Assembly: GCA_011321935.1 (NCBI GenBank)
Contig: DROJ01000332.1
Location: 1-33,320, forward strand
DNA: 33,320 nucleotides
Direction: 5' to 3'
DNA from: Bacteroidota bacterium
GTDB taxonomy: Bacteria > Bacteroidota > Bacteroidia > Chitinophagales > Saprospiraceae
Below, piece by piece: positions 2,898-19,696 of the stretch. The notes beneath the pieces were generated by a model. The model was not told the origin of the DNA. It worked only from the letters and a program-made list of their open reading frames with translations, and made no database searches. Made by a program: the position numbers and the translations under genes. Position 1 is the stretch's first letter, and each line of letters begins with the position of its first letter.

Positions 2898-5800
2898 TTA
2901 CTCAAGCGAGAAGCGCACTGTCACGCCGCTCCTGATATTGGTCGTTGGATAGCCTTCCGACGTCTTTGGCTCTTGTCGGCGGTAATCAAAAAAGAAGCGC
3001 AGGGATAATTGTTTGTTCAATTGATAGGTTGCCTGCGGCAAAATGGTAATGATCTTATTGCCCCTCGTTGGGTCTTGTGTACCGTAGAACAAATCATAGC
3101 GGTTGGTCTCGTCATCACGGATGGAAAAGTCGAAGGTAATGTCGAGGCTGCCGGGTTCGTTCGTTCTGCGCCTGCCTGCCCGGCTGGAAGAGCCCGGCTT
3201 GTTTTTATCGTCCTTTTTTTGTTTTGCCCGGCTTTTTTTCTTTTTCTTAGAAGTAAGGAAACCAAGTTCCACTTCTTTTATTTTGTACCCAAAACCAACG
3301 GTAATGTCTGTTCCGACGGTCTCGTTCATATAGCCTTCCAAATCGAGGGCAAGCGTTCTCCTCTTGGAAAATTCCCCTTTAAAAGACATATCGTTTTTCA
3401 AGCGGACATCCACTCCGAGCAGCGGGCTGAACTGTTCTTGAACCTGTACGTCAGGGATCCTGAAACGGGAAAAGTAGTTGAGGTTAGGATTGGCCTCCAG
3501 GTCATTCGTCTGCTCTGTGACCAGCAAAAACGGGTCAGTACTGTCGTAAGAATTATTGGTGCGGTAGCTGCTCACCGACATTGTTCCCTTGTACCCGTGG
3601 CTGATACTGATGCTCCGGAAATACTCTTTGAACGGTGCCAGGTCTGCCAAGCCATCATAGGTAAGACGCCAATTGGGAGCGGGTTTTGTTTTGATCAAAA
3701 CATTGCTCAAATAATCATCGGCAACGGCAATATTGCCGGGGTCTTTACCGGTATAAGCTGCAAAAAATGCTGGCAACAATACATCGGGATGAGTACGGCC
3801 GTAGCCCCTTGGATAGCCTTGGGCGGCGTTGTCGGGATCGTCGTGGCTGCCCGGCGGGTCGGAAGACAGGCGGTTCGCAATGCCGACCCTAGCATCCGAA
3901 AAGGTTTTAAAAAGGCCGAAAAGGTCTTTCTCGAACAGTGTATTGAAAGCTCCGATATAGGAAACCTGGAAAGTCCCGAAATCGGACTCGGCAAAGTGTT
4001 CCATTTCTGTCTGCGAACGGTTGTCGGGGTTGGCTGGGTCAAGGATTTGGTTGCGCGCAAATTTCTCCTCGTGGTTTCTGGTCTTTGATCTGCTGGCATC
4101 CACGTCAATACGGAATTTACGGAAAGGTTCAATGGTCAGCTTGCCGTCCATCTCTTGCTTATAAGTCTGCAAAAGTGGGTTTGGCTGCGTGACATCACCT
4201 GAAATCCACTGCCAGTTTTTGTATAAATAATCTTTGTCCGTGTACCAGTCTTTTTGGTCAATGTTGGGCTGGAAACCTGCCACAAAGCCCCATCCGGGGG
4301 CATCAAAACTTTGCATTCCGAACAACTTGCTGTCTGGCAGATAACCGGGGATGACGGTGGTATAGCTTTCCCGGTAGTTCAGCCTCAATTTTCGGACAGC
4401 CATCAGTGGCCGGATGAAGGCGCGCTCCATCTTGCTGGGCTGCTTGTCTTTGTTTTTCTTCTTGTCCCTATCTGAGCGGTTCTTGCCCGCCTTGTCTTTT
4501 TTATCGGAGTCTTTGCCTTTGTCTCCGTTTTTCTTTTTTGATTTTTTATCATCGGCCTTACTGCCCCTTTTGTTCTTTTTATCTCCTTTGCTGGCGTCCC
4601 GGAGGCCTCGGCTACCGCGGCCGCGGCGGGGCTTTGAATTGATTTTTTTCAGGTAAGGGACATAATTGTACAACTTTTCAAAATCAAGGTCTCCGTTGAT
4701 TGTCTTGTCCTGTGAGTTGTTGATGATGTTGCCTTGGGCGATGGCAGTAGGGGTGCGGCTCGAAGCATCCCAGCCATAGCCCGCTTTGTAACTTGCCTTT
4801 AAACCTACCCAATCGAGGAAGGGGATGTCTTTGGTGGGCACTTTATAGGTCGCATTGATATTGTGCTGGTAGTGTTTGGTCCGCCCAAAATCGCGGAGGC
4901 TCTTTTTTATGGAATCGCGGCGGAATTTACCGATGTCGGAAATGTAGAGGGGGTCATTGGCCGGCAATTGGTTTCGCTCCAGCATTTCTATTTCATCCGG
5001 TTCGTCAATGACTGCGTTGTTGTCGGCATTGAACTGGAACTTGAGGTTGCGGGTAATGTCCCACTGTAAATCATAGATCCGGTTCCAGACAAACTGCTTA
5101 TTATAATAGGTGTTGTACAAAGGGTTGGCGCCCGCAAAACGGTGCTTGGTCACATTGAACTTCCGGTCGAGGTCGGTGCTGAAAGCAAAAGAATTGGGGA
5201 AAGGATTGAAGTTCATGTTTTTTAAAAACTTCAGGTTTTTGCTTTTGATGACCTTTTTCAGGGGTTCGATATATTTTACTTTCCGGGTATAATTATAATC
5301 CAGTGCGCCCCTTCGTCTGGTCAGCACGTCACTTTCCACGATGGGATCGTGCTGTGAAGTTTCATCAAAAGCATAGGTAGCCGTAAAATTGGAGATGTCC
5401 CAGGGCATTGGTTTTTTATCGGTATTGGTGCGCTGCTTCCGCACGTTCGTGAAATTGTAGCTTTTGATGGTCTTTACGGTTTGTGCATCGGTCTTGGCTT
5501 GCTGTGGGTTTGCTTCCGTTTTCAACTTCTCGTCGAGTTCAAGGTCAAGGTCGTAGGGGTCGTACTGCGGGGTGCTTACTTCTTTTGAATATTGGAAATA
5601 AAAGGGAACGGACAGCCCTGTTTTTTCCGGCAGGAATTTATCCAATTGTGCCGTGCCGGCAATGTCGTATTGCAGCTTTTTTTCTCTCTGCCTATCGGCC
5701 AATTGTTTGTCGAGCGGCCCAAAGCCGATGCTGCTTGCTGCCACCGAACCCGAGAGGGTCATGAAGTCGGCCAATTGCATATCTATCCGGGCCGTACCCG

Positions 5801-8800
5801 CCACACCGCCCCTTTCGTCGAGGCCAAAGGCGCGGAGTTCGTTGATCCAGATTTCGATGCTTTTTTCATCGTTTTGCAAACAGTCGTCCCCGATGACGGG
5901 GTTGCGGATGCCGACCATGACCGTTTTTACCAGGCCAAGGTTGGGGTTTCCTTTTATCCGGAAAATGGCGCCCGTTTTTTTCTCTCCGGGCATGTTCTTG
6001 ATTTCGTACAGTTTCCCCAATGTCGCATCGGGGTCTGCGTTCCTTATTGTTTTCAGTTTTTTTAGCAAATCAAAATCAATGGTGATGTCGTTCGAGTCCG
6101 GCCAGACGACGCGCGCGTACTCATCGCTCCTCTCCTGAACGATTGTATTGGGATCAGACATGGTGATGGGTATTTCATATTCATAAAAATTGCTGTTGAT
6201 GTCGCTTCCCAGGCGGATGAAAACATTTAAATCACCATCTTGCAAGGGTTCGTTTGTTGCGCAGTTTTTAGTGTCCTCTGCGTGCAAGAACATCTTTAAT
6301 TTTTTCAGCACGCGCATATCGAGGTTCAGGTTTTTAAAAACCCCTCTTGCATCGCCGTCTTCCAAATTGCAGACCCTCAAAGAAAGCGCTTGCTCGTTTT
6401 GCAGGGCACTGATATTTACTCCCAGTGCTTGCTCCCTGGTGATGCCCGGGGGAAGGGTATAGCCAAATGGTTCGCGTTCGCTGTTTTCCTCAATGTTCAC
6501 CGCATTGATGTCAAAAGATGTTTCGTCAAAATCAAAACAAGGCTCTTCTTCCAGTTCCCTGGTGTACCGGCGCCATTGGCTCCGTACCAGTTCTAAAGTT
6601 GCGAAGCGCAGGACAACGGGCTGTTGAAACCCTTTGAGGTACATCCGCATGAAACGGATGGAACGGAAATCGCGGATGCCACCGACTTTTCTGAAGAAGG
6701 GGTCGGAGTCCAATAGGTTGAGGGGGATGCGGAAGCGGTGCCATACCCGGCGGTCGTCATTGCTTACTCTTGTCTCGGTAATAAAAGGGTTGGCGTCAGC
6801 GTCAATGCCCCGGAGGCCATCATAAACGATGGGCACCCGGTACTCAAAATAACTTTCCGTTTCGTTCACCGTCCGGTCACCGTCGAGGTCTTCTCCATCG
6901 GGTAATGTAGTGGAGGAACGGGTCAAGGATTCACCTTGGTTGATGGGGGTGTTGCCTTCCAGGCCAAAGAAGCGGTCATAGCGGTCAAGTGTTGAAGTAC
7001 CATTGCTGTAACTGCGGTAATGCCGGAAGTTGTCGTTGGAGGGGTCGGCAGTGATTGTAGCTATAGCAGGGGCAGAGAGGGATTGTATTGCGGCTATATA
7101 ATCCGCAAATTTGACCCTTTCGCCTGCATCGTTAAGGCCGTCGAGACCGACGTCCTGTGCTGCCCTGTTGTCGGGATCCGTATCAAAATTGTTAGTGATC
7201 TGCGGGTTGAGCGGTATCTGCCCCCAATTGGTTTCGGTAGATCTCAGTCCTTGTGTATTGGGGCCGGGAAGGCCATTTTCAAAAAACTTTCTTGAATCGG
7301 GCATGATGTCTTCGGAAATGTTTCCGAAGTTGATAATCAACTCGCCGTTCATCCTGCCAGAAGCGGCATCGGGGTTGGCAGCGATAGCGCCGGTTGTATC
7401 TAGGTAAGGGCTCATCATCCAAAATTCGAGGAATTCGATGTTGGAAGATTGAAAGTCGTTGGTGGTCATTTGCCGCATAATGCCGGCCCAGCGCGTTTCG
7501 GGGTCTTTGAGCGAGCCATCAGGGTTGAGGCCTGCTGAAAAAGCAGACCCGGTTGGGGGATCGTAATTATAGGGCCCCCTCCGGGTAGGGTCATAAGCAA
7601 GGTCCAATGAGCGGATCAAAGCGGCGCCCAATTGGTTTGCGTTTTGCCGGTTAGGAAAAATTTCTGTTTGCTGGACAACAACACCGTATGGGTTTCCATT
7701 GTCGTTGCCAGAAGAACTACGGTCAATGCTGTACCAACTAAGGTGTGCCCGGTTCATGCCGGCCACGAGCGAATCGTTCAAGAAGGCTTCGGGGAAAATG
7801 GGATCGGTGGCATCTTGGTCATCACGTGGTACACTTGACATCATCCAGCCATTTACTCCAACAGAAGGAGTGGTCAGGTTGAGGGGCGTTACAGCGCCTT
7901 CAAAGTCATCTATGTAAACGACGCCCCCCTTGTTCTTTTCCGTGGGAGAGTCTTCGTTGATAGCGCGGGCGTGGCCTGGTTTCAGTACCGCTGTTTCGGC
8001 GGTAAAATTGATGTTCGACATTTCTTTGGTAGAGATCAAGGGTATCTTGTCCACTAAGCGGGTCAGCCACGGGGCTTCATTGCTGTAATTTACATCAAAG
8101 CCATAGATGCGGTTGTTGATGGGGTCGTCGCCGATATTTACTTTTTGGGTATAGGGCCTTTCAAATAGGTGCAGATAGGTGCCCCCCAGGGTCAAGTGCT
8201 TGTTGACCATATAATCGGCGCGCACACCCAACATGGTCTTGGTTTGAAAGCCAAAAAGGGAATTGTCTTCAAATTCGACCCGGATCGGCGCACCTGAATT
8301 GAGGTACACATCATTTAGGATACGCACCCGGCCGATCTGGTAATCTATTTCATAATCACGGCCTTCTTCTAATTTTTTTCCGCCCGAATAAACACTCACG
8401 GCCCCTTGTGGAATATTGAACGCGCCGAGGGAAATTTCAGAGGAGACGGATGATTTATAACTGCCTTTTATGGTGAAGCGGTTGAACTCCTGAAACTCCC
8501 TGGCATTGAAAAGGGTCTGTTTGTACAATTGTTCATAAACAAACTTGGCAGTGTCTTGAGGTTGGAGTTGGCTGGCGAGCGAGCTGCCGAAAGGCTCTAA
8601 GACCGGGAACATGATCCGCCCGTTGCGGGTATTGATAGTGAGCCCGTCCACAAAGTCAAAAACCCCATCGGGCTGCGGGTCGAGCTGCACGTTGAGCTGG
8701 TCGAGGTTGAAAATGCGGAGCAGGGGCTTGTCCGAGATGCCGGCTGCCGGCATAAATTGCTTGGTGCCCTCGCCGGGGTCTTCATAATAAACGCCCAGTT

Positions 8801-10487
8801 CAAAATCTTCTCTTGATACATTATAGGCACCGATGTTGTAAACATTTTTCATCATCAAGTCCCAAGTCGGCAACTCAACGGGCTGAATGGTGCTTTTCAA
8901 CATTTTCACGAACAGTACATTTTGCGTGACCGAATCGGTTGCCCTTTCCTGGTCTTCTGCAATCTGCCCTACTTTATAAAACTTATCTTGGTAAAAATAT
9001 TCAAATGCAACCCCTACCACTTGATCAGGCTGGATGTTGATGTTCAACGAAACAAAACCCAGCTTGGGGTGATAGGTGAACTCTGTGGGCGACAATTGGC
9101 GTGCTGTCACTTTCTCGAAATCACGTCCTTGCTGTAAACCCATGCCCCTTAATACATTGACCACTTTGTCCACCTCTTTTGAATTTGGCGTATTCAAGAT
9201 GGTATTGTAAAGGTCGTTCGCCCTGTTTTCTGGCAGGGCGTTCAAGCCAGTAATGTCGGTGGCAAAAGGAGGGGTCCGCTCGTCTTGCTCAGGGTTGGTG
9301 AAGCGGCTTGTTTCGCCCAGATCAGCGAGGGCAACAATGTCGCGGATGTTCTCCGTCGAGTTGCGGGTGTCGGTCACCCATACCTGAATGTTTTTGATGT
9401 CAAAAAGAGACTTGATGGTGGGCAGTTCGCTCAGTGCTTCCTCAAAATGTTCGCGGTTGTAATGGGTGAGGAAAAAGTGGCGGTTCTCGTCGTACTCATC
9501 GGCTTTTACTTCAAATTCTTGAAATTGGCTGCCGCCCTCTAAGGTGATGGATTCGCGCTCCGATTTTTGTTGCGAAGCGACAAGGTTCAAGGTCAAGCGG
9601 CCGAATTGCAGTTCTGTTTTAATACCGAACAAACTCTGGCTGCCCTGTATCAAAGTGCCCCGCAGAGGCAGGCTCACGTTTCCCGCTTCTATTTTTTTGA
9701 TGATGTCGTCTTCGCCAAATGTTTCGGTATTGTAATCCAACTTCATGGTATTGTCGAAGTCGAAAGTTGCCTGGGTATTGTAGTTGGTATTCAGTTTTAG
9801 TTTTTCGCCGATGGAGCCGTCCACGTTCATCTGGATAGCCATGTCAAAATCGAAACCGCCCTGCCGTTGTTGCCGCTGGGGGAGGGTTGGGTTCAAGATG
9901 TTGTTGAACTCCACGCCAAAGGTCAGGTCAATGTTTCCTTGCGGTTTGATGTCCACTTCTGTGCCTCCAAAAAGGCGCTCGATCATCTGGTCCTTGATGT
10001 CGATTTTTGCCAGTGGGTCCAACCTGCCCGAAGTTCCCCGCCCTGTGCTTGAACCTGAAAGTGCATTAAAATATTCTTGCTCCTGCTGTCTGGCCTGATA
10101 CTCCATGTACTCATCGAAAGTCATGTAAGTAGGGGGGCGGAAATAGTCGCCGCCTATCGTTTCGGTAATGATGTAATTGCCCGTTTCGGGGTCGAACTCT
10201 ACTGTTTGCTCTACCGCCGCAGGGTCTTGCAGGTCGAAGGGGTTTTGGTTGGCATCGTTCAGGAAATCATCCTGCCGGTCGATGAGGGGGATCGTATCTG
10301 CTGGAGGGGAAGCTGTTTCCTGGAGCATGTTCTGCTCGGTGGGTTCAGTTTCGGTCTCGTTAGAGGCCAGTACATATTCGGGCGCAAAAGGGTTTTCTGG
10401 CATGTTGGTGCTTCCAAAAACGGAGGGGTTTTCAGCGAGCATCAAGAACACCAGCATACTAACAATAAGTAAAAATCTCTTCTTCAT
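2898..10487 (-). CDS. sprA: T9SS outer-membrane translocon protein SprA
   Basis: SprA is the very large beta-barrel that forms the outer-membrane pore of the type IX secretion system. It exports adhesins, enzymes and gliding proteins that carry C-terminal sorting domains. The 2529-residue length is in the family range (about 2400-2500). Recognisable parts are an N-terminal signal peptide (MKKRFLLIVSMLVFLMLA), the SprA N-terminal repeat type (GNIDLTFGVEFNNI, LNTNYNTQATFDFDN, GNVSLPLRGTLIQGSQSLFG), a VYIDDFEGA block typical of SprA, and many amphipathic strands to an FSLE C-terminus. I start at the ATG at 10487 because the upstream track residues lack a signal peptide. Two odd Lys/Arg/Asp-rich insertions lie at about residues 1950-2023 and 2412-2445. 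ruvA upstream on the same strand matches a common Bacteroidota gene order, but about 500 bp of repeats separate them. Confidence 0.96.
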   Translation of the reverse strand: MKKRFLLIVSMLVFLMLAENPSVFGSTNMPENPFAPEYVLASNETETEPTEQNMLQETASPPADTIPLIDRQDDFLNDANQNPFDLQDPAAVEQTVEFDPETGNYIITETIGGDYFRPPTYMTFDEYMEYQARQQEQEYFNALSGSSTGRGTSGRLDPLAKIDIKDQMIERLFGGTEVDIKPQGNIDLTFGVEFNNILNPTLPQRQQRQGGFDFDMAIQMNVDGSIGEKLKLNTNYNTQATFDFDNTMKLDYNTETFGEDDIIKKIEAGNVSLPLRGTLIQGSQSLFGIKTELQFGRLTLNLVASQQKSERESITLEGGSQFQEFEVKADEYDENRHFFLTHYNREHFEEALSELPTIKSLFDIKNIQVWVTDTRNSTENIRDIVALADLGETSRFTNPEQDERTPPFATDITGLNALPENRANDLYNTILNTPNSKEVDKVVNVLRGMGLQQGRDFEKVTARQLSPTEFTYHPKLGFVSLNINIQPDQVVGVAFEYFYQDKFYKVGQIAEDQERATDSVTQNVLFVKMLKSTIQPVELPTWDLMMKNVYNIGAYNVSREDFELGVYYEDPGEGTKQFMPAAGISDKPLLRIFNLDQLNVQLDPQPDGVFDFVDGLTINTRNGRIMFPVLEPFGSSLASQLQPQDTAKFVYEQLYKQTLFNAREFQEFNRFTIKGSYKSSVSSEISLGAFNIPQGAVSVYSGGKKLEEGRDYEIDYQIGRVRILNDVYLNSGAPIRVEFEDNSLFGFQTKTMLGVRADYMVNKHLTLGGTYLHLFERPYTQKVNIGDDPINNRIYGFDVNYSNEAPWLTRLVDKIPLISTKEMSNINFTAETAVLKPGHARAINEDSPTEKNKGGVVYIDDFEGAVTPLNLTTPSVGVNGWMMSSVPRDDQDATDPIFPEAFLNDSLVAGMNRAHLSWYSIDRSSSGNDNGNPYGVVVQQTEIFPNRQNANQLGAALIRSLDLAYDPTRRGPYNYDPPTGSAFSAGLNPDGSLKDPETRWAGIMRQMTTNDFQSSNIEFLEFWMMSPYLDTTGAIAANPDAASGRMNGELIINFGNISEDIMPDSRKFFENGLPGPNTQGLRSTETNWGQIPLNPQITNNFDTDPDNRAAQDVGLDGLNDAGERVKFADYIAAIQSLSAPAIATITADPSNDNFRHYRSYSNGTSTLDRYDRFFGLEGNTPINQGESLTRSSTTLPDGEDLDGDRTVNETESYFEYRVPIVYDGLRGIDADANPFITETRVSNDDRRVWHRFRIPLNLLDSDPFFRKVGGIRDFRSIRFMRMYLKGFQQPVVLRFATLELVRSQWRRYTRELEEEPCFDFDETSFDINAVNIEENSEREPFGYTLPPGITREQALGVNISALQNEQALSLRVCNLEDGDARGVFKNLNLDMRVLKKLKMFLHAEDTKNCATNEPLQDGDLNVFIRLGSDINSNFYEYEIPITMSDPNTIVQERSDEYARVVWPDSNDITIDFDLLKKLKTIRNADPDATLGKLYEIKNMPGEKKTGAIFRIKGNPNLGLVKTVMVGIRNPVIGDDCLQNDEKSIEIWINELRAFGLDERGGVAGTARIDMQLADFMTLSGSVAASSIGFGPLDKQLADRQREKKLQYDIAGTAQLDKFLPEKTGLSVPFYFQYSKEVSTPQYDPYDLDLELDEKLKTEANPQQAKTDAQTVKTIKSYNFTNVRKQRTNTDKKPMPWDISNFTATYAFDETSQHDPIVESDVLTRRRGALDYNYTRKVKYIEPLKKVIKSKNLKFLKNMNFNPFPNSFAFSTDLDRKFNVTKHRFAGANPLYNTYYNKQFVWNRIYDLQWDITRNLKFQFNADNNAVIDEPDEIEMLERNQLPANDPLYISDIGKFRRDSIKKSLRDFGRTKHYQHNINATYKVPTKDIPFLDWVGLKASYKAGYGWDASSRTPTAIAQGNIINNSQDKTINGDLDFEKLYNYVPYLKKINSKPRRGRGSRGLRDASKGDKKNKRGSKADDKKSKKKNGDKGKDSDKKDKAGKNRSDRDKKKNKDKQPSKMERAFIRPLMAVRKLRLNYRESYTTVIPGYLPDSKLFGMQSFDAPGWGFVAGFQPNIDQKDWYTDKDYLYKNWQWISGDVTQPNPLLQTYKQEMDGKLTIEPFRKFRIDVDASRSKTRNHEEKFARNQILDPANPDNRSQTEMEHFAESDFGTFQVSYIGAFNTLFEKDLFGLFKTFSDARVGIANRLSSDPPGSHDDPDNAAQGYPRGYGRTHPDVLLPAFFAAYTGKDPGNIAVADDYLSNVLIKTKPAPNWRLTYDGLADLAPFKEYFRSISISHGYKGTMSVSSYRTNNSYDSTDPFLLVTEQTNDLEANPNLNYFSRFRIPDVQVQEQFSPLLGVDVRLKNDMSFKGEFSKRRTLALDLEGYMNETVGTDITVGFGYKIKEVELGFLTSKKKKKSRAKQKKDDKNKPGSSSRAGRRRTNEPGSLDITFDFSIRDDETNRYDLFYGTQDPTRGNKIITILPQATYQLNKQLSLRFFFDYRRQEPKTSEGYPTTNIRSGVTVRFSLE

Positions 10488-10813
10488 AATATTGCGGCAA
10501 GATGCCTTCTTTTTACGATTAGTGCGTGTGTCTTTTAAGGAAAAAACTGGAACATCTATTTGCATAAAAAAAATATTTAAACAAATGATGCACAGTCCTT
10601 AAGACGGTATTTAAAATGCAAAACAAATTGAAGCAGTGTTGATCGCAGCCTCAAGGAAAAGAGTCTGTTACGAAATGGAATCGGAATGGTTGAGCAAAGT
10701 TGAAACTAGTTTAATGCTTTTCGTAAAATCCTAACATACCTTTGATTTTGTTTGCACACGGAATGGTTCAAAAACGCTGAATTCCTGATTGATTTTTTGA
10801 GGGCCTATTATTT
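10488..10813. other. Spacer upstream of sprA
   Basis: No gene was found. On the plus strand there is a perfect TACCTTTG box (10737-10744) matching the Bacteroidota -7 consensus TAnnTTTG. It points toward the heptad repeats and antisense to ruvA, and I see no good -33 partner for it. I could not find a convincing minus-strand promoter for sprA. The AT-rich stretch at 10560-10600 is the likely sprA leader. Confidence 0.4.
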
Positions 10814-15470: not shown

Positions 15471-16898
15471 ATGAAACATTCAATTATTATAATACTATTT
15501 CTTTCGGCCAGCACCACTGCCAAGGCCCAACTCTGGGAACAAGTGGGCGGCCCAGAATGGTGGGGCGCGGGCGCCATGTACAGCGACACCCTGACCAATT
15601 CGCTTTATATCGGCGGCATCTTCCTTTGGCCCGGGGATACCGTGCGGGGCATCTTCAGGTACGATGGCAATGAATGGGAGACCGTGGCGGCATTCGACAA
15701 ATATTCATCTTTTGATTGGAGGGGGGCATTGACCAGGTATCAAGGTAAGATCATTTACGGCGGCTATTTCCGCTTGTTCGATGATGTCTTCCCGACCAAC
15801 ATTGCTGCATGGAACGGTACGGGATGGGAGCCAATGGGGGCTACTTCCGAGGGGCTTTTATGGGGCCCGGTTCATGCCTTTTATGACTGGCAAGGCAGCT
15901 TGGTTGTCGGGGGGCAGGTGATATATGTGGATTCGGTAAGGGTGGATGGCATCGCAAGATGGGACGGCTCAGAATGGGACCCTTTGGGCACGGACATGTT
16001 TCTGGACGCTTTCAATAGAGAGGTGACCGCCATTGAGGAGTACCACGGTGAGTTATATATGGGGGGGAGGATCACCATGTCCGTGCCCGGTCCGTTTTCG
16101 CCGCACAGCTATGGGTTGGCAAAGTGGGACGGGGAAAAGTGGAAGCCTGTCGGGTACGGTGGTTTGGGGCCATGGTCTCCAATTTGTGGAATTTCTTCTG
16201 TGAATGCCCTAGCAACCTTTCAGGGCGAGCTCTATATAGGAGGTTGTTTCCCATTACTCCCAGTATATGAACCGGGTACCAACTTCCCCATCGCCACAGC
16301 ATTAGTGAAATGGAACGGAACCGAATACCGGGCATTGGGAGCGGAAGAACCCTACGTAATTGATATGGTCGTTTTTAATGAAGAACTGTACGTAGTGGGA
16401 GAGTTTGATTCCCATTCAGAGGTCGGGGAGACCAATGTGTTCAAATGGGACGGCAGTCGGTGGTGCAGCCTGGGCAGTATATTCAACGGGCCGATACACC
16501 ACATCGGGATACACAATGGGGAACTGTACGTTTCGGGCGGTTTTACCCATATAAACGGCGAGCCTTTTCGGGGCGTCGTGAAATGGGTCGGCGGTGATTA
16601 TACAGCAGCATGCGGCACTCCCGTGGCAACGGACGAGCCGCTGCCTAAAAGGGACGGTTTTGTTATTTCCCCCAACCCTGCCGGGGAAAAAATAAGCCTT
16701 TCCTTTTCCAATCCTATATTCCAAAAAAATACAAACCTGAAAGTGTTCGATACGCTGGGACATATTGTTTTTAAAAAAAACAACCTGAAAAATATAGACG
16801 GATATATAATAGAAGTGAGCAGTTGGCCGCCGGGCGTATATTTTATGAATATGGAAGTTGATGGGCAGGCATGGACGAAAAAAATAATAATACAATAA
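15471..16898 (+). CDS. Secreted seven-bladed propeller with T9SS sorting domain
   Basis: A 475-residue exported protein with signal peptide MKHSIIIILFLSASTTAKAQ. The body contains seven copies of a motif like (A/K)WDGxxWxPLG, at about 61, 111, 161, 216, 278, 323 and 369 (for example ARWDGSEWDPLG and AKWDGEKWKPVG). They are interspersed with xGELYxGG strands, which suggests a seven-bladed Kelch-like beta-propeller. The sorting domain starts at about 397 (FVISPNPAGEKISLSF) and ends in WTKKIIIQ. The role is probably binding at the cell surface, with no catalytic residues recognised. The next gene begins 5 bp after its stop, so they are likely cotranscribed. Its sorting domain is nearly identical in DNA to that of the next gene over 66 bp. 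Confidence 0.85.
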   Translation: MKHSIIIILFLSASTTAKAQLWEQVGGPEWWGAGAMYSDTLTNSLYIGGIFLWPGDTVRGIFRYDGNEWETVAAFDKYSSFDWRGALTRYQGKIIYGGYFRLFDDVFPTNIAAWNGTGWEPMGATSEGLLWGPVHAFYDWQGSLVVGGQVIYVDSVRVDGIARWDGSEWDPLGTDMFLDAFNREVTAIEEYHGELYMGGRITMSVPGPFSPHSYGLAKWDGEKWKPVGYGGLGPWSPICGISSVNALATFQGELYIGGCFPLLPVYEPGTNFPIATALVKWNGTEYRALGAEEPYVIDMVVFNEELYVVGEFDSHSEVGETNVFKWDGSRWCSLGSIFNGPIHHIGIHNGELYVSGGFTHINGEPFRGVVKWVGGDYTAACGTPVATDEPLPKRDGFVISPNPAGEKISLSFSNPIFQKNTNLKVFDTLGHIVFKKNNLKNIDGYIIEVSSWPPGVYFMNMEVDGQAWTKKIIIQ

Positions 16899-16903
16899 TA
16901 CCG

Positions 16904-17917
16904 ATGAAAAAATATATCTACCCAATAGTCATATTTTCCCTTATTTCTTTTACTGCCTATTCACAGGAGCTTCGAGGAGGAGAAATTTCTCTCAATCGAG
17001 TCGTATATCACACTTACGATATATTCTTTGATTTGTACTATCATAATTTAGAACCGCCCTATAAACCTTTTCTTTTGGTTGACCTTGACGGTGTCCCTGA
17101 TACTGCGTTTCTTTCTACAGTCATAGATATTGATAATGAAATGTCTTTGCTCAGGTACTACACAACACATACTTTCCCAGGAACAAATGCCTCTGTAGCT
17201 GTGATAGACACCTTGTACCTGCCAGAATTAAAAAACCTACAAGGGCCCAACAAAGACAAATTGCGGCTGTTTACGTTTTTCGAAATACATTCCGTTGCAT
17301 TGGGATTTAATGTGCCCCCAACATTCACTAATCTACAGACGGATTATGAAATAACGGACGGCATTTTTAGCTATAATATAGAAGCTGCGGATGCCGACAG
17401 GGATACCCTTTTTTATTTTGCAAAAGATTTTTCTGATTTTCCGGGCTATGAATACAGCTATCCCGGCATACCCGATACCACATATTTTATGAACCCCCTG
17501 ACCGGGGAAGTGCTTTGGGACAGGCCATTGGAGCCGGGCAAATATTTGATAGGCTTTGACGTGGAGGAATATACAACCAGCGCAATTTATTTGGGTACGT
17601 GGGAAAGGATCATGGTCGTCGAGATAAAGGAGGAAGACATCGTTCCACTATCGGTACAAGGCCAAGAAAAATTTCCCCTTTTTACTATTTCCCCCAACCC
17701 CGCCGGGGAAAAAATAAGCCTTTCCTTTTCCAATCCTATATTTCAAAAAAACATAAAAATAAAAGCTTACAACACCATCGGGCAGATTGTTTTTGAAAAA
17801 GAAATAATGGGGAGTGGGGAGGAAGAAATAGATGTGAAAAACTGGCCGCCGGGCATATATTTTATAAATATAGAAACTGGCGAAAAAACATGGACGGAGA
17901 AATTGGTGGTGAAATAA
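16904..17917 (+). CDS. Secreted T9SS cargo protein with GGEI/WDRP surface domains
   Basis: A 337-residue exported protein with signal peptide MKKYIYPIVIFSLISFTAYSQ, followed by ELRGGEISLNRV. Both this GGEI opening and the later AADADRDTLFYF...NPLTGEVLWDRPLEPGKYLIGFDVEEY are features of a Bacteroidota surface protein family with Ig-like modules. It ends with a type A sorting domain (FTISPNPAGEKISLSF ... WTEKLVVK). It resembles the protein at 14382 in the WDRP block, so the two are paralogues flanking the propeller gene. The start is the ATG at 16904, since the track start at 16871 lies inside the previous gene. No enzymatic motif was seen. Confidence 0.85.
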   Translation: MKKYIYPIVIFSLISFTAYSQELRGGEISLNRVVYHTYDIFFDLYYHNLEPPYKPFLLVDLDGVPDTAFLSTVIDIDNEMSLLRYYTTHTFPGTNASVAVIDTLYLPELKNLQGPNKDKLRLFTFFEIHSVALGFNVPPTFTNLQTDYEITDGIFSYNIEAADADRDTLFYFAKDFSDFPGYEYSYPGIPDTTYFMNPLTGEVLWDRPLEPGKYLIGFDVEEYTTSAIYLGTWERIMVVEIKEEDIVPLSVQGQEKFPLFTISPNPAGEKISLSFSNPIFQKNIKIKAYNTIGQIVFEKEIMGSGEEEIDVKNWPPGIYFINIETGEKTWTEKLVVK

Positions 17918-18007
17918 TGTTTCATTGCTTCATGCCCGCCCCGATTGCTCGGGGGCTACATTGTTTCATTGTTTCATTGTCAGAGAGGATAGAGCTATTT
18001 AAAAATG
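17918..18007. repeat. TTTCATTG octad repeats
   Basis: After the cargo gene stop the spacer iterates TTTCATTG (for example GTTTCATTGTTTCATTG near 17961-17980) and CTTCATG variants. The same word recurs near 21989-22003 upstream of the response regulator. It belongs to the short-word repeats common in this window's spacers. No gene was seen. Confidence 0.6.
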
Positions 18008-18254
18008 GTAACTGTTTAGTCCCCAACGAATCCCGAAGGGATTGAATGTGAATAGCCCCGGATTGCATCCGGGGGAAGCAGTAAAAGTGGGCGGCAACCC
18101 CGAAGGGGTTGAATATTGCCATTCACATTCAACCCCTTCGGGGTTGCCGCCCACCTTTACATCTTTTCCCCGGATTGCCTGCCTACCGGCAGGCAGGCAT
18201 CCGGGGCTATTCACATTCAATCCCTTCGGGATTCGTTGGGGACTAAACAGTTAC
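18008..18254. mobile_element. MITE-like 247-bp palindromic element with 8-bp target duplication
   Basis: The element begins GTAACTGTTTAGTCCCC and ends with the exact complement GGGGACTAAACAGTTAC. The complementarity continues inward over roughly 100 bp per side. It is flanked directly by identical 8-bp direct repeats, TAAAAATG at 18000-18007 and 18255-18262, as left by transposition. GTAA termini and 8-bp duplications are features of IS66-family elements, so mobilisation by such a transposase is possible, but this is an inference. Nested hairpins occur inside (CCCGAAGGG, CCCCGGAT/ATCCGGGG). No coding sequence is present, and the short ORFs across it are repeat artefacts. Confidence 0.85.
18179..18198. 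repeat. 20-bp mini-palindrome nested in the MITE
   Basis: CTGCCTACCGGCAGGCAGGC splits the loop of the right-hand CCCCGGATTGC/ATCCGGGG hairpin. The left-hand hairpin of the same element (about 18055-18075) lacks it and reads straight through CCCCGGATTGCATCCGGGG. Comparison of the two arms therefore shows an insertion of exactly 20 bp. Translated, this word gives the LPAGRQ strings often seen in Bacteroidota spacer ORFs. Confidence 0.75.
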
Positions 18255-18358
18255 TAAAAATGATAGTAGGCAGACCTGATTTAATATTTCAATTAATTCG
18301 CTGATCATAGCTGGCATTTTCAATGAAACCATTCAGCCATTTAACCATTCAACCATTT

Positions 18359-19696
18359 TTATATCCTCAAAGTAAACACCGTGCCTTCCCCCGGCACCGA
18401 CTGCACTGAAATGCGTCCCCGGTGCGTGCGCATGATCTGCCGGGAGAGGCTCAGGCCGATGCCGCTGCCCTCCTCTTTGGTGGTATAAAAGGGGACGAAT
18501 ACCTGCGCCAGTTTTTCCTTTTCGATGCCTTTGCCGTTGTCTGCTATTTTAATGACGGCACTGCCCTCTTTGGTGCGTTGGGTGCTGATGGATATGGTCG
18601 GGCCTTCTTTTCCTTTTATGGCGTCCACCGCATTTTTTACAATATTGATGATGACCTGCTCGATCAGTTCCACGTCGGCCTGAAAGATGACGGGGGTTTG
18701 CGAAAGCTGTGTTTTGAACTGGATATTGTTTTTTTCAAAAACAGGCTGGTACAAAACACGGAGGCGCTCCACCAGGTCATTGGCGTCCACCAACTGGAAT
18801 TTCGGGGGCGGCAGCCGCGTCAGGTTGCGGTAGGTTTCGGTGAAGTGCATCAGCCCCTCGCTGCGGTTTCGGATGGCCGAGATGGCCGCCCGGATGTCGT
18901 CCGATTGTTCTTTGTCGGTGATTCCATCGGGTGCATCGGCCAGCATATTGTCAATAGTGGAAGCGAGCGAAACGATGGGCGCTATGGAGTTCATGATCTC
19001 GTGCCGGAGTATGCGGATGAGCTTTTGCCAAGCATCGAGTTCCTGCTCTTCCAGCTCTCCTTGTATGTTGTGGAAAGAAATAAGTTTGAGTTTTTGGTCG
19101 CGCAAAACAAACTCGGCGGCCTGCAGGGCGAGCTGCATGGTCTTGTTTTCGAGTTCCACTTTTACCATGTCCCGCTCCCCGGTCTTTATTCTTTTCACGG
19201 CAGCGTGCAGTCCTTCGTGTACTTGTTGAAAGGCATCCACATGCACGAGGTAGGGCTTGTTGAGGAGCTTCTGCAAAGCCTTGTTCATCATAAAAATGCC
19301 CCCCCCCTCGTCAATGCAGAGCAGGCCCACGTTTACCGATTCGACGATGGTCTGCAGGTATTGGTGGTTGGCTTCTTTCTCCGCCCGGATGTTCAAAAAT
19401 TTCCGGTTGATGTCGTTGAAGGCATCGTACATGGCCCCAAAACTTTTGCCCTTGTGGTGGCCGGAATAGGTGGCCGAAAAGTCGTCGTACTTGATGCCCA
19501 ACAGGAAGGCCGTAAAATCTTTGTTCGTTTGGTCAACATAGCGCACCATGTCCATCACCGTCAAAACAATGACCACAAAAAGGATGAACATGGTAATATA
19601 AAATTCCGTTTTTGCTGCGCAATAGACCAGCGCCAATACCAGCGCAATGAGGAAAAGGAGGCGGAAGGTGATATTTGTGCGGAAGGATTTAAACAT
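18359..19696 (-). CDS. NtrY-like membrane sensor histidine kinase
   Basis: A 445-residue sensor kinase that should phosphorylate the NtrC-like regulator encoded just upstream. It has two N-terminal membrane segments (about 10-27 and 33-50), a PAS-like region (about 110-205), the dimerisation/phosphoacceptor helix with ILRHEIMNSIAPI (His about 232), the N-box VKNAVDAIKG, and G-boxes IADNGKGIEKE, FYTTKEEGSGIGLSLS and SVPGEGTVF. There is almost no periplasmic loop between the membrane segments, so the signal is probably membrane-borne or cytoplasmic. The start codon overlaps the end of the PIN toxin gene by 8 bp, which suggests one transcript. The long plus-strand ORF across it is an antisense shadow. 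Confidence 0.93.
   Translation of the reverse strand: MFKSFRTNITFRLLFLIALVLALVYCAAKTEFYITMFILFVVIVLTVMDMVRYVDQTNKDFTAFLLGIKYDDFSATYSGHHKGKSFGAMYDAFNDINRKFLNIRAEKEANHQYLQTIVESVNVGLLCIDEGGGIFMMNKALQKLLNKPYLVHVDAFQQVHEGLHAAVKRIKTGERDMVKVELENKTMQLALQAAEFVLRDQKLKLISFHNIQGELEEQELDAWQKLIRILRHEIMNSIAPIVSLASTIDNMLADAPDGITDKEQSDDIRAAISAIRNRSEGLMHFTETYRNLTRLPPPKFQLVDANDLVERLRVLYQPVFEKNNIQFKTQLSQTPVIFQADVELIEQVIINIVKNAVDAIKGKEGPTISISTQRTKEGSAVIKIADNGKGIEKEKLAQVFVPFYTTKEEGSGIGLSLSRQIMRTHRGRISVQSVPGEGTVFTLRI

Follow-up and report, generated by a model that had tools for sequence, protein, structure and literature searches.

The window, a 33,320-nucleotide stretch of a Saprospiraceae draft genome (6.74 Mb, 633 contigs, 94% complete), carries a short palindromic element that is very probably a non-autonomous MITE of the IS66 type, apparently moved in trans by a TnpC transposase and enclosing a REP-like body that belongs to a family associated with IS200/RAYT-like Y1 transposases. 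MITEs, IS66 elements and REP sequences are each already known kinds of element. IS66-family MITEs have been little described to date, and REP sequences and the MITEs of DDE transposons are usually handled as distinct classes of short repeat. In the window genome alone, dozens of elements have IS66-type ends around hairpin arrays that also surround Y1 genes. If the two systems truly combine, the Y1 enzyme need not be the only means by which REPs spread, and the expansion of REP families and their change of host would become a testable question.

The element occupies a 441-bp gap between convergent genes for a type IX-secreted protein and a histidine kinase (Table 1). Kinase orthologues in two congeners, G010 (84% identical) and G008 (75% identical), have no such element alongside, but the neighbouring gene differs there, and the window copy could not be matched to an exact empty site. 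Elsewhere in the window, a 2555-aa open reading frame runs from 2898 to 10565 on the minus strand. The element itself is a near-perfect palindrome of 247 bp (18008-18254), whose termini at 18008 and 18254 read GTAACTGTTTAG... and whose two ends are both GTAACTGTTTAGTCCCCAACGAATCCC. An earlier note on this DNA, made from the sequence alone, had proposed a MITE-like element with an 8-bp target duplication at 18000-18262, and this was borne out by perfect copies of TAAAAATG at both borders. The inverted arms of about 100 bp that it described are also real, although its word "imperfect" understates them, as the outer arms (18008-18063 and 18199-18254) are 100% complementary over 56 bp; the remainder is self-complementary too, with 44-bp arms (89%) that enclose a centre of 12 bp. 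The element has a folding energy of -134.7 kcal/mol as single-stranded DNA, against -35.7 +/- 3.5 kcal/mol in dinucleotide shuffles (z = -28). No open reading frame of 80 aa or more lies within the 247 bp, and an Rfam scan of the window for known structured RNAs returned tRNA only. Being short, non-coding and bounded by terminal inverted repeats, the element has the form of a MITE.

Table 1 Features of the element and its flanking genes, in window coordinates
Feature	Position	Strand	Basis
Flanking gene, 348-aa protein with type IX secretion sorting tail (PF18962)	16871..17917	+	
Left 8-bp target-site duplication copy, TAAAAATG	18000..18007	.	Sequence; family-wide flank test
Left terminal inverted repeat, GTAACTGTTTAGTCCCCAACGA	18008..18029	+	Matches IS66/ISBst12-type IS ends position by position
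Left REP-like module, three hairpins	18029..18113	+	Model R1, 100.6 bits; pair covariation
Right REP-like module, inverted orientation	18128..18233	-	Model R1, 89 bits; alignment
Right terminal inverted repeat, ending ...CTAAACAGTTAC	18233..18254	-	Sequence
Right 8-bp target-site duplication copy, TAAAAATG	18255..18262	.	Sequence
Flanking gene, PAS/HATPase histidine kinase	18359..19696	-	

BLAST of the element against its own genome gave 85 matches at about 40 places, and near-matches to the terminal 15-mer pattern numbered 229 in the genome, compared with 24 for the reversed pattern. The proposal of a mobile element hinged on other copies having distinct 8-bp duplications of their own. When 56 end-pairs from the window genome were paired without regard to their flanks, 34 were bordered by an exact direct repeat of 8 bp, in 33 distinct sequences, and 14 had no flank repeat of any kind. 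With the right flank shifted by 2-3 bases there were no exact 8-bp repeats (0 to 2 over all slid flanks), and comparing left flanks with the right flanks of other elements gave 10 matches in 3080, so the 8-bp repeat is not due to chance. The duplicated targets, taken from a flank-filtered set, are 80% A+T, compared with about 51% in a sample of the genome. The family thus consists of multiple dispersed copies with independent target duplications, as MITEs do. Four loci considered as further copies (L033, L034, L037 and L038) were set aside: GTAACTGTTTAGCCC is nested there in the longer arms GGTAGTGGTAAAAAGTACGTGATG... of a larger palindrome, and the 8-bp flanks are inverted and not direct, so that they represent another palindromic family. 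A 172-bp element with a GTAACTGTTTAGCACCCCTCGAAA end and the 8-bp repeat ATTTTATG was also seen in a MAG labelled Lachnospiraceae (UBA2734; L097:1678-1849); since this label denotes another phylum, the element reflects either transfer or a binning error.

To find complete IS with matching ends, GTDB genomes were scanned for GTAACTGTTTAGCACC. The scan matched a 1510-bp IS (L088) in a Bacteroidetes MAG, with ends GTAACTATTTAGCCC / GTAACTGTTTAGCACCC, flanks that agree at 6 of 8 positions, and a single 470-aa TnpC protein (NCBIfam transpos_IS66, 262 bits with a cut-off of 180; Pfam DDE_Tnp_IS66, 130 bits). Sister copies of the MITE are identical to one end of this IS over their first 17 bp; the window copy agrees with that end for its first 12 bp (GTAACTGTTTAG), after which it has TCCCC in place of the CACCC of the IS. 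Relatives of this TnpC were detected in 18 of 298 genomes of the window's family, and 13 IS of this type (1465-1554 bp) share the end pattern GTAACT(A/G)(T/C)T(T/C)A(G/C), with the MITE ends varying at the same positions as theirs. Perfect or one-mismatch 8-bp duplications border at least 7 of the 13, and congener G007 carries one such IS with its tnpC split over two frames. ISDge4 (ISBst12 group, IS66), whose transposition has been observed, has the terminal repeats GTGACTACTCAGCA / GTAACTGCTCAGCA, a 449-aa single ORF and an 8-bp repeat (PMC12898284). The ISDge4/ISBst12 group resembles the window element in its imperfect terminal repeats of the GTAACTGCTCAGCA type and its 8-bp duplication, and ISDge4 shares a single-ORF transposase with the IS found here, in which it measures about 450-500 aa; the group nevertheless consists of autonomous 1.5-kb IS, whereas the window element is geneless, 247 bp long and filled with a hairpin array (PMC12898284). 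The description of the ends as IS66-like is therefore upheld at the aligned ends of 13 IS66-family IS and by the published ISDge4, and complete IS66-family elements with matching ends do exist (single-ORF TnpC, ISBst12 type), among other Saprospiraceae as well as in a further Bacteroidetes MAG. Judging by its terminal repeats and 8-bp duplication, the window element is a putative non-autonomous member of the IS66 family, ISBst12 group.

The transposase had been expected elsewhere in the same genome. Its IS66 type is supported, but the matching IS lie in related genomes and not in this assembly. Queries with Pfam IS66 and the L088 TnpC (E<=1e-30) detected no matching TnpC in the 633-contig draft. 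The only IS66-like (PF03050) transposases of the window genome are two distant ones, from elements ending in GTAAGTACTCA and GAATCCCC, and, with their divergent proteins and different ends, neither was taken as the matching autonomous partner. We also rejected as an IS a Pedobacter pair carrying the end motif (L083/L094), because its mirror-image flanks suggest one sequence in two orientations. The mover has either been lost or not been assembled, two cases that look the same in a draft of this kind, or it is a resident distant IS66-like transposase that tolerates a loose match to the ends. A cognate transposase in the same genome is not a defining requirement for a MITE.

While the non-autonomous IS66-type reading is supported, the earlier note missed the interior, which is a REP/BIME-like hairpin array. 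This interior is not IS debris but an inverted pair of REP-like modules, BIME/REPIN-like in arrangement, formed by two inverted copies of an 85-base module with three short hairpins each. In the left module the hairpins are AATCCC-GAA-GGGATT, CCCCGGAT-TGC-ATCCGGGG and CAACCCC-GAA-GGGGTTG; in the right module the second hairpin holds an additional inserted hairpin (CCTGCCTACCGGCAGGCAGG). Among 31 module halves from this genome and its congeners, 98.9% of cells are paired and double changes occur in 10 of 21 pairs, compared with 2.4 expected by shuffling; this covariation indicates that the hairpins are kept and not why, because template-switch correction of imperfect palindromes could also yield paired changes. 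The linker before the second hairpin is conserved as TGAATAG/TGAATAA, and no GTAG/GTGG or CGTC tag was identified at the hairpin foot in the module alignment, for which reason we call the modules REP-like and atypical and do not file them as classical REPs. A home-made covariance model of the module half (R1), with rough E-values, matched 17 genomes out of the 120 taken from the family and 20 out of 148 from the phylum, frequently with tens of copies each. Across Bacteroidota, the modules stand alone, in tandem arrays or as inverted pairs, and their flanks are mostly quite different; in most other genomes they lack IS66-type ends, and none of 40 loci outside the window genus showed 8-bp duplications around module pairs. 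These are repeated intergenic hairpin units, single, paired or arrayed, as in REP/BIME families. The module pairs of G143 (L246-L255) have outer inverted repeats TAATGTCGTCAACTTAG with a flank repeat of about 12 bp in at least one copy, and those of G099 (L236-L245) have outer inverted repeats TCTATTGATACCCCACATCT without obvious duplication.

Furthermore, the same ends were found around other interiors. In the window genome, at least four mutually unrelated hairpin bodies occur between IS66-type ends that are bordered by 8-bp duplications: body A, which is the window interior, body B, carrying CCCCCGACTTCAGTCGGGGG, body C, carrying GGGAATAAATTCCC, and body D, carrying GTAGCACAGC...GCTGTGCTAC. 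There are also TIR-to-TIR forms of 57-62 bp that consist of little beyond the two ends and have duplications of their own, and 4 of 36 body-A copies have no recognisable ends. In congener G007, body A lies between (C/G)GTTCTTTGACAATT ends with the perfect 8-bp duplications AAGGTTTT and TTTTTTTA (L122 about 1475-1714 and L137 about 1410-1649), and an ISL3-family IS in congener G010 (L189) has the same ends. Since several bodies occur in IS66-type ends and body A also occurs in ISL3-like ends, bodies and ends combine freely. In L036 and L076, from position 1501, body C runs in tandem (units of about 150 bp) after an IS66-type end, forming a minisatellite inside the MITE at which the contigs break. 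BrickBuilt of Porphyromonas gingivalis is likewise a Bacteroidota MITE whose repetitive interior is unrelated to the end-donor transposase, but it has a 23-bp minisatellite interior, irregular duplications and no IS66 ends (PMC4596501). GTAG-15 of A. variabilis and CGTC-1 of H. neapolitanus, two unrelated bacteria, are similar in that REP dimers are nested in an outer palindrome; theirs was not tied to an IS family or target duplications (PMC3733652), whereas that of the window element consists of paired IS66-type TIRs bordered by 8-bp duplications. A literature search, with most subscription journals outside its reach, turned up no paper describing MITEs of the IS66 type that carry REP bodies.

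As in REP/BIME families, copies also flank genes for Y1 (RAYT-like) transposases. On contig C193 of the window genome, a 148-aa Y1 transposase gene has modules on either side; its product belongs to NF033573 (IS200/IS605) and has HLH and YVKNQEEHH motifs. On contig C415, a second Y1 gene (171 aa; L306 1467-1982, minus strand) is flanked on both sides (L306:1183-2429) by GGGGGAATAAATTCCCCC repeats, the interior of the body-C MITEs. A third Y1 gene, on contig C59 (L308:750-1681), is flanked by a different palindromic repeat, ATCCTAGTCCCGCAGGGACGGC, which was not seen inside the MITEs examined. Modules were located within about 1.5 kb of 8 of 30 Y1 loci, as against 0 of 30 IS66/ISL3 loci; most Y1 loci are without a detectable module. 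The subclass 2.6 REPtrons of Bacteroidetes tnpA-REP are comparable, with a Y1 gene flanked by atypical hairpins that are repeated genome-wide (PMC6006769). The Y1 proteins here have YVKNQEEHH / YVFNQERHH, as opposed to the YIH(Q/N)NP listed for that subclass, and the repeats, unlike those of the REPtrons, are also packaged inside MITEs of a DDE transposase (PMC6006769).

We infer the following scenario, in which movement of the element by TnpC, movement of the modules by a Y1 protein and the first joining of the two are all reconstructed. An ISBst12-type TnpC acting in trans would recognise the GTAACTRTTTAGC ends, cut or copy the element there and insert it into A+T-rich 8-bp targets, which would then be duplicated, while Y1 enzymes would spread the hairpin modules. 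The composite may have arisen when a REP dimer entered a short palindrome of the IS66 type (the 57-62 bp forms are a possible target, if they are not a deletion product) or when ends were captured; it would then have dispersed as a single unit via its IS66-type ends. A broader idea, conceivable but on balance doubtful, is that Y1/RAYT-type enzymes of Saprospiraceae repeatedly load REP-dimer bodies into the palindromic centres of MITEs from unrelated DDE families (IS66-type, ISL3-like), with the MITE ends serving as interchangeable vehicles, and that REPs would thus gain a second, copy-amplifying route with target duplications. For annotation of Bacteroidota, the ends, the length of the target-site duplication and the covariance model of the module supply family definitions.

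It is unlikely that the element is an ordinary IS66-derived MITE, an internal-deletion relic with neutral palindromic filler and no real link to REPs. Ends, duplications and copy family require nothing further, and the TIR-to-TIR forms with their own duplications exist, but the interior shares homology with modules of distant Bacteroidota whose flanks are quite different, shows compensatory changes and flanks a Y1 gene in the window genome, and a second interior, body C, matches a second Y1 locus. Less probable still is that a Y1 (RAYT-like) transposase spread the element, which would then be a REP/BIME first of all, with GTAAC ends and 8-bp repeats of no consequence. The wide occurrence of modules without IS66-type ends, as singles, arrays and pairs, and their presence around Y1 genes are in keeping with that idea; the exact 8-bp duplications in 34 of 56 end-pairs, and the same ends and duplications around unrelated interiors, are not. 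Transposition of the IS200/IS605 Y1 type makes no target duplication. Spread by Y1 alone is therefore contradicted for the window copy by the statistics of its target duplications and terminal repeats, and an IS66-type MITE with a REP-like body remains the preferred reading. Finally, the least credible account makes the element a regulatory hairpin, such as a bidirectional transcription terminator; as the primary explanation it is refuted by the evidence of mobility, despite very stable hairpins and a window copy between convergent genes: only 4 of the 39 copies with genes on both sides lie between convergent genes (26 are co-directional and 9 divergent), and terminator sites are thus not preferred. 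The hairpin may still have a secondary effect on neighbouring genes.
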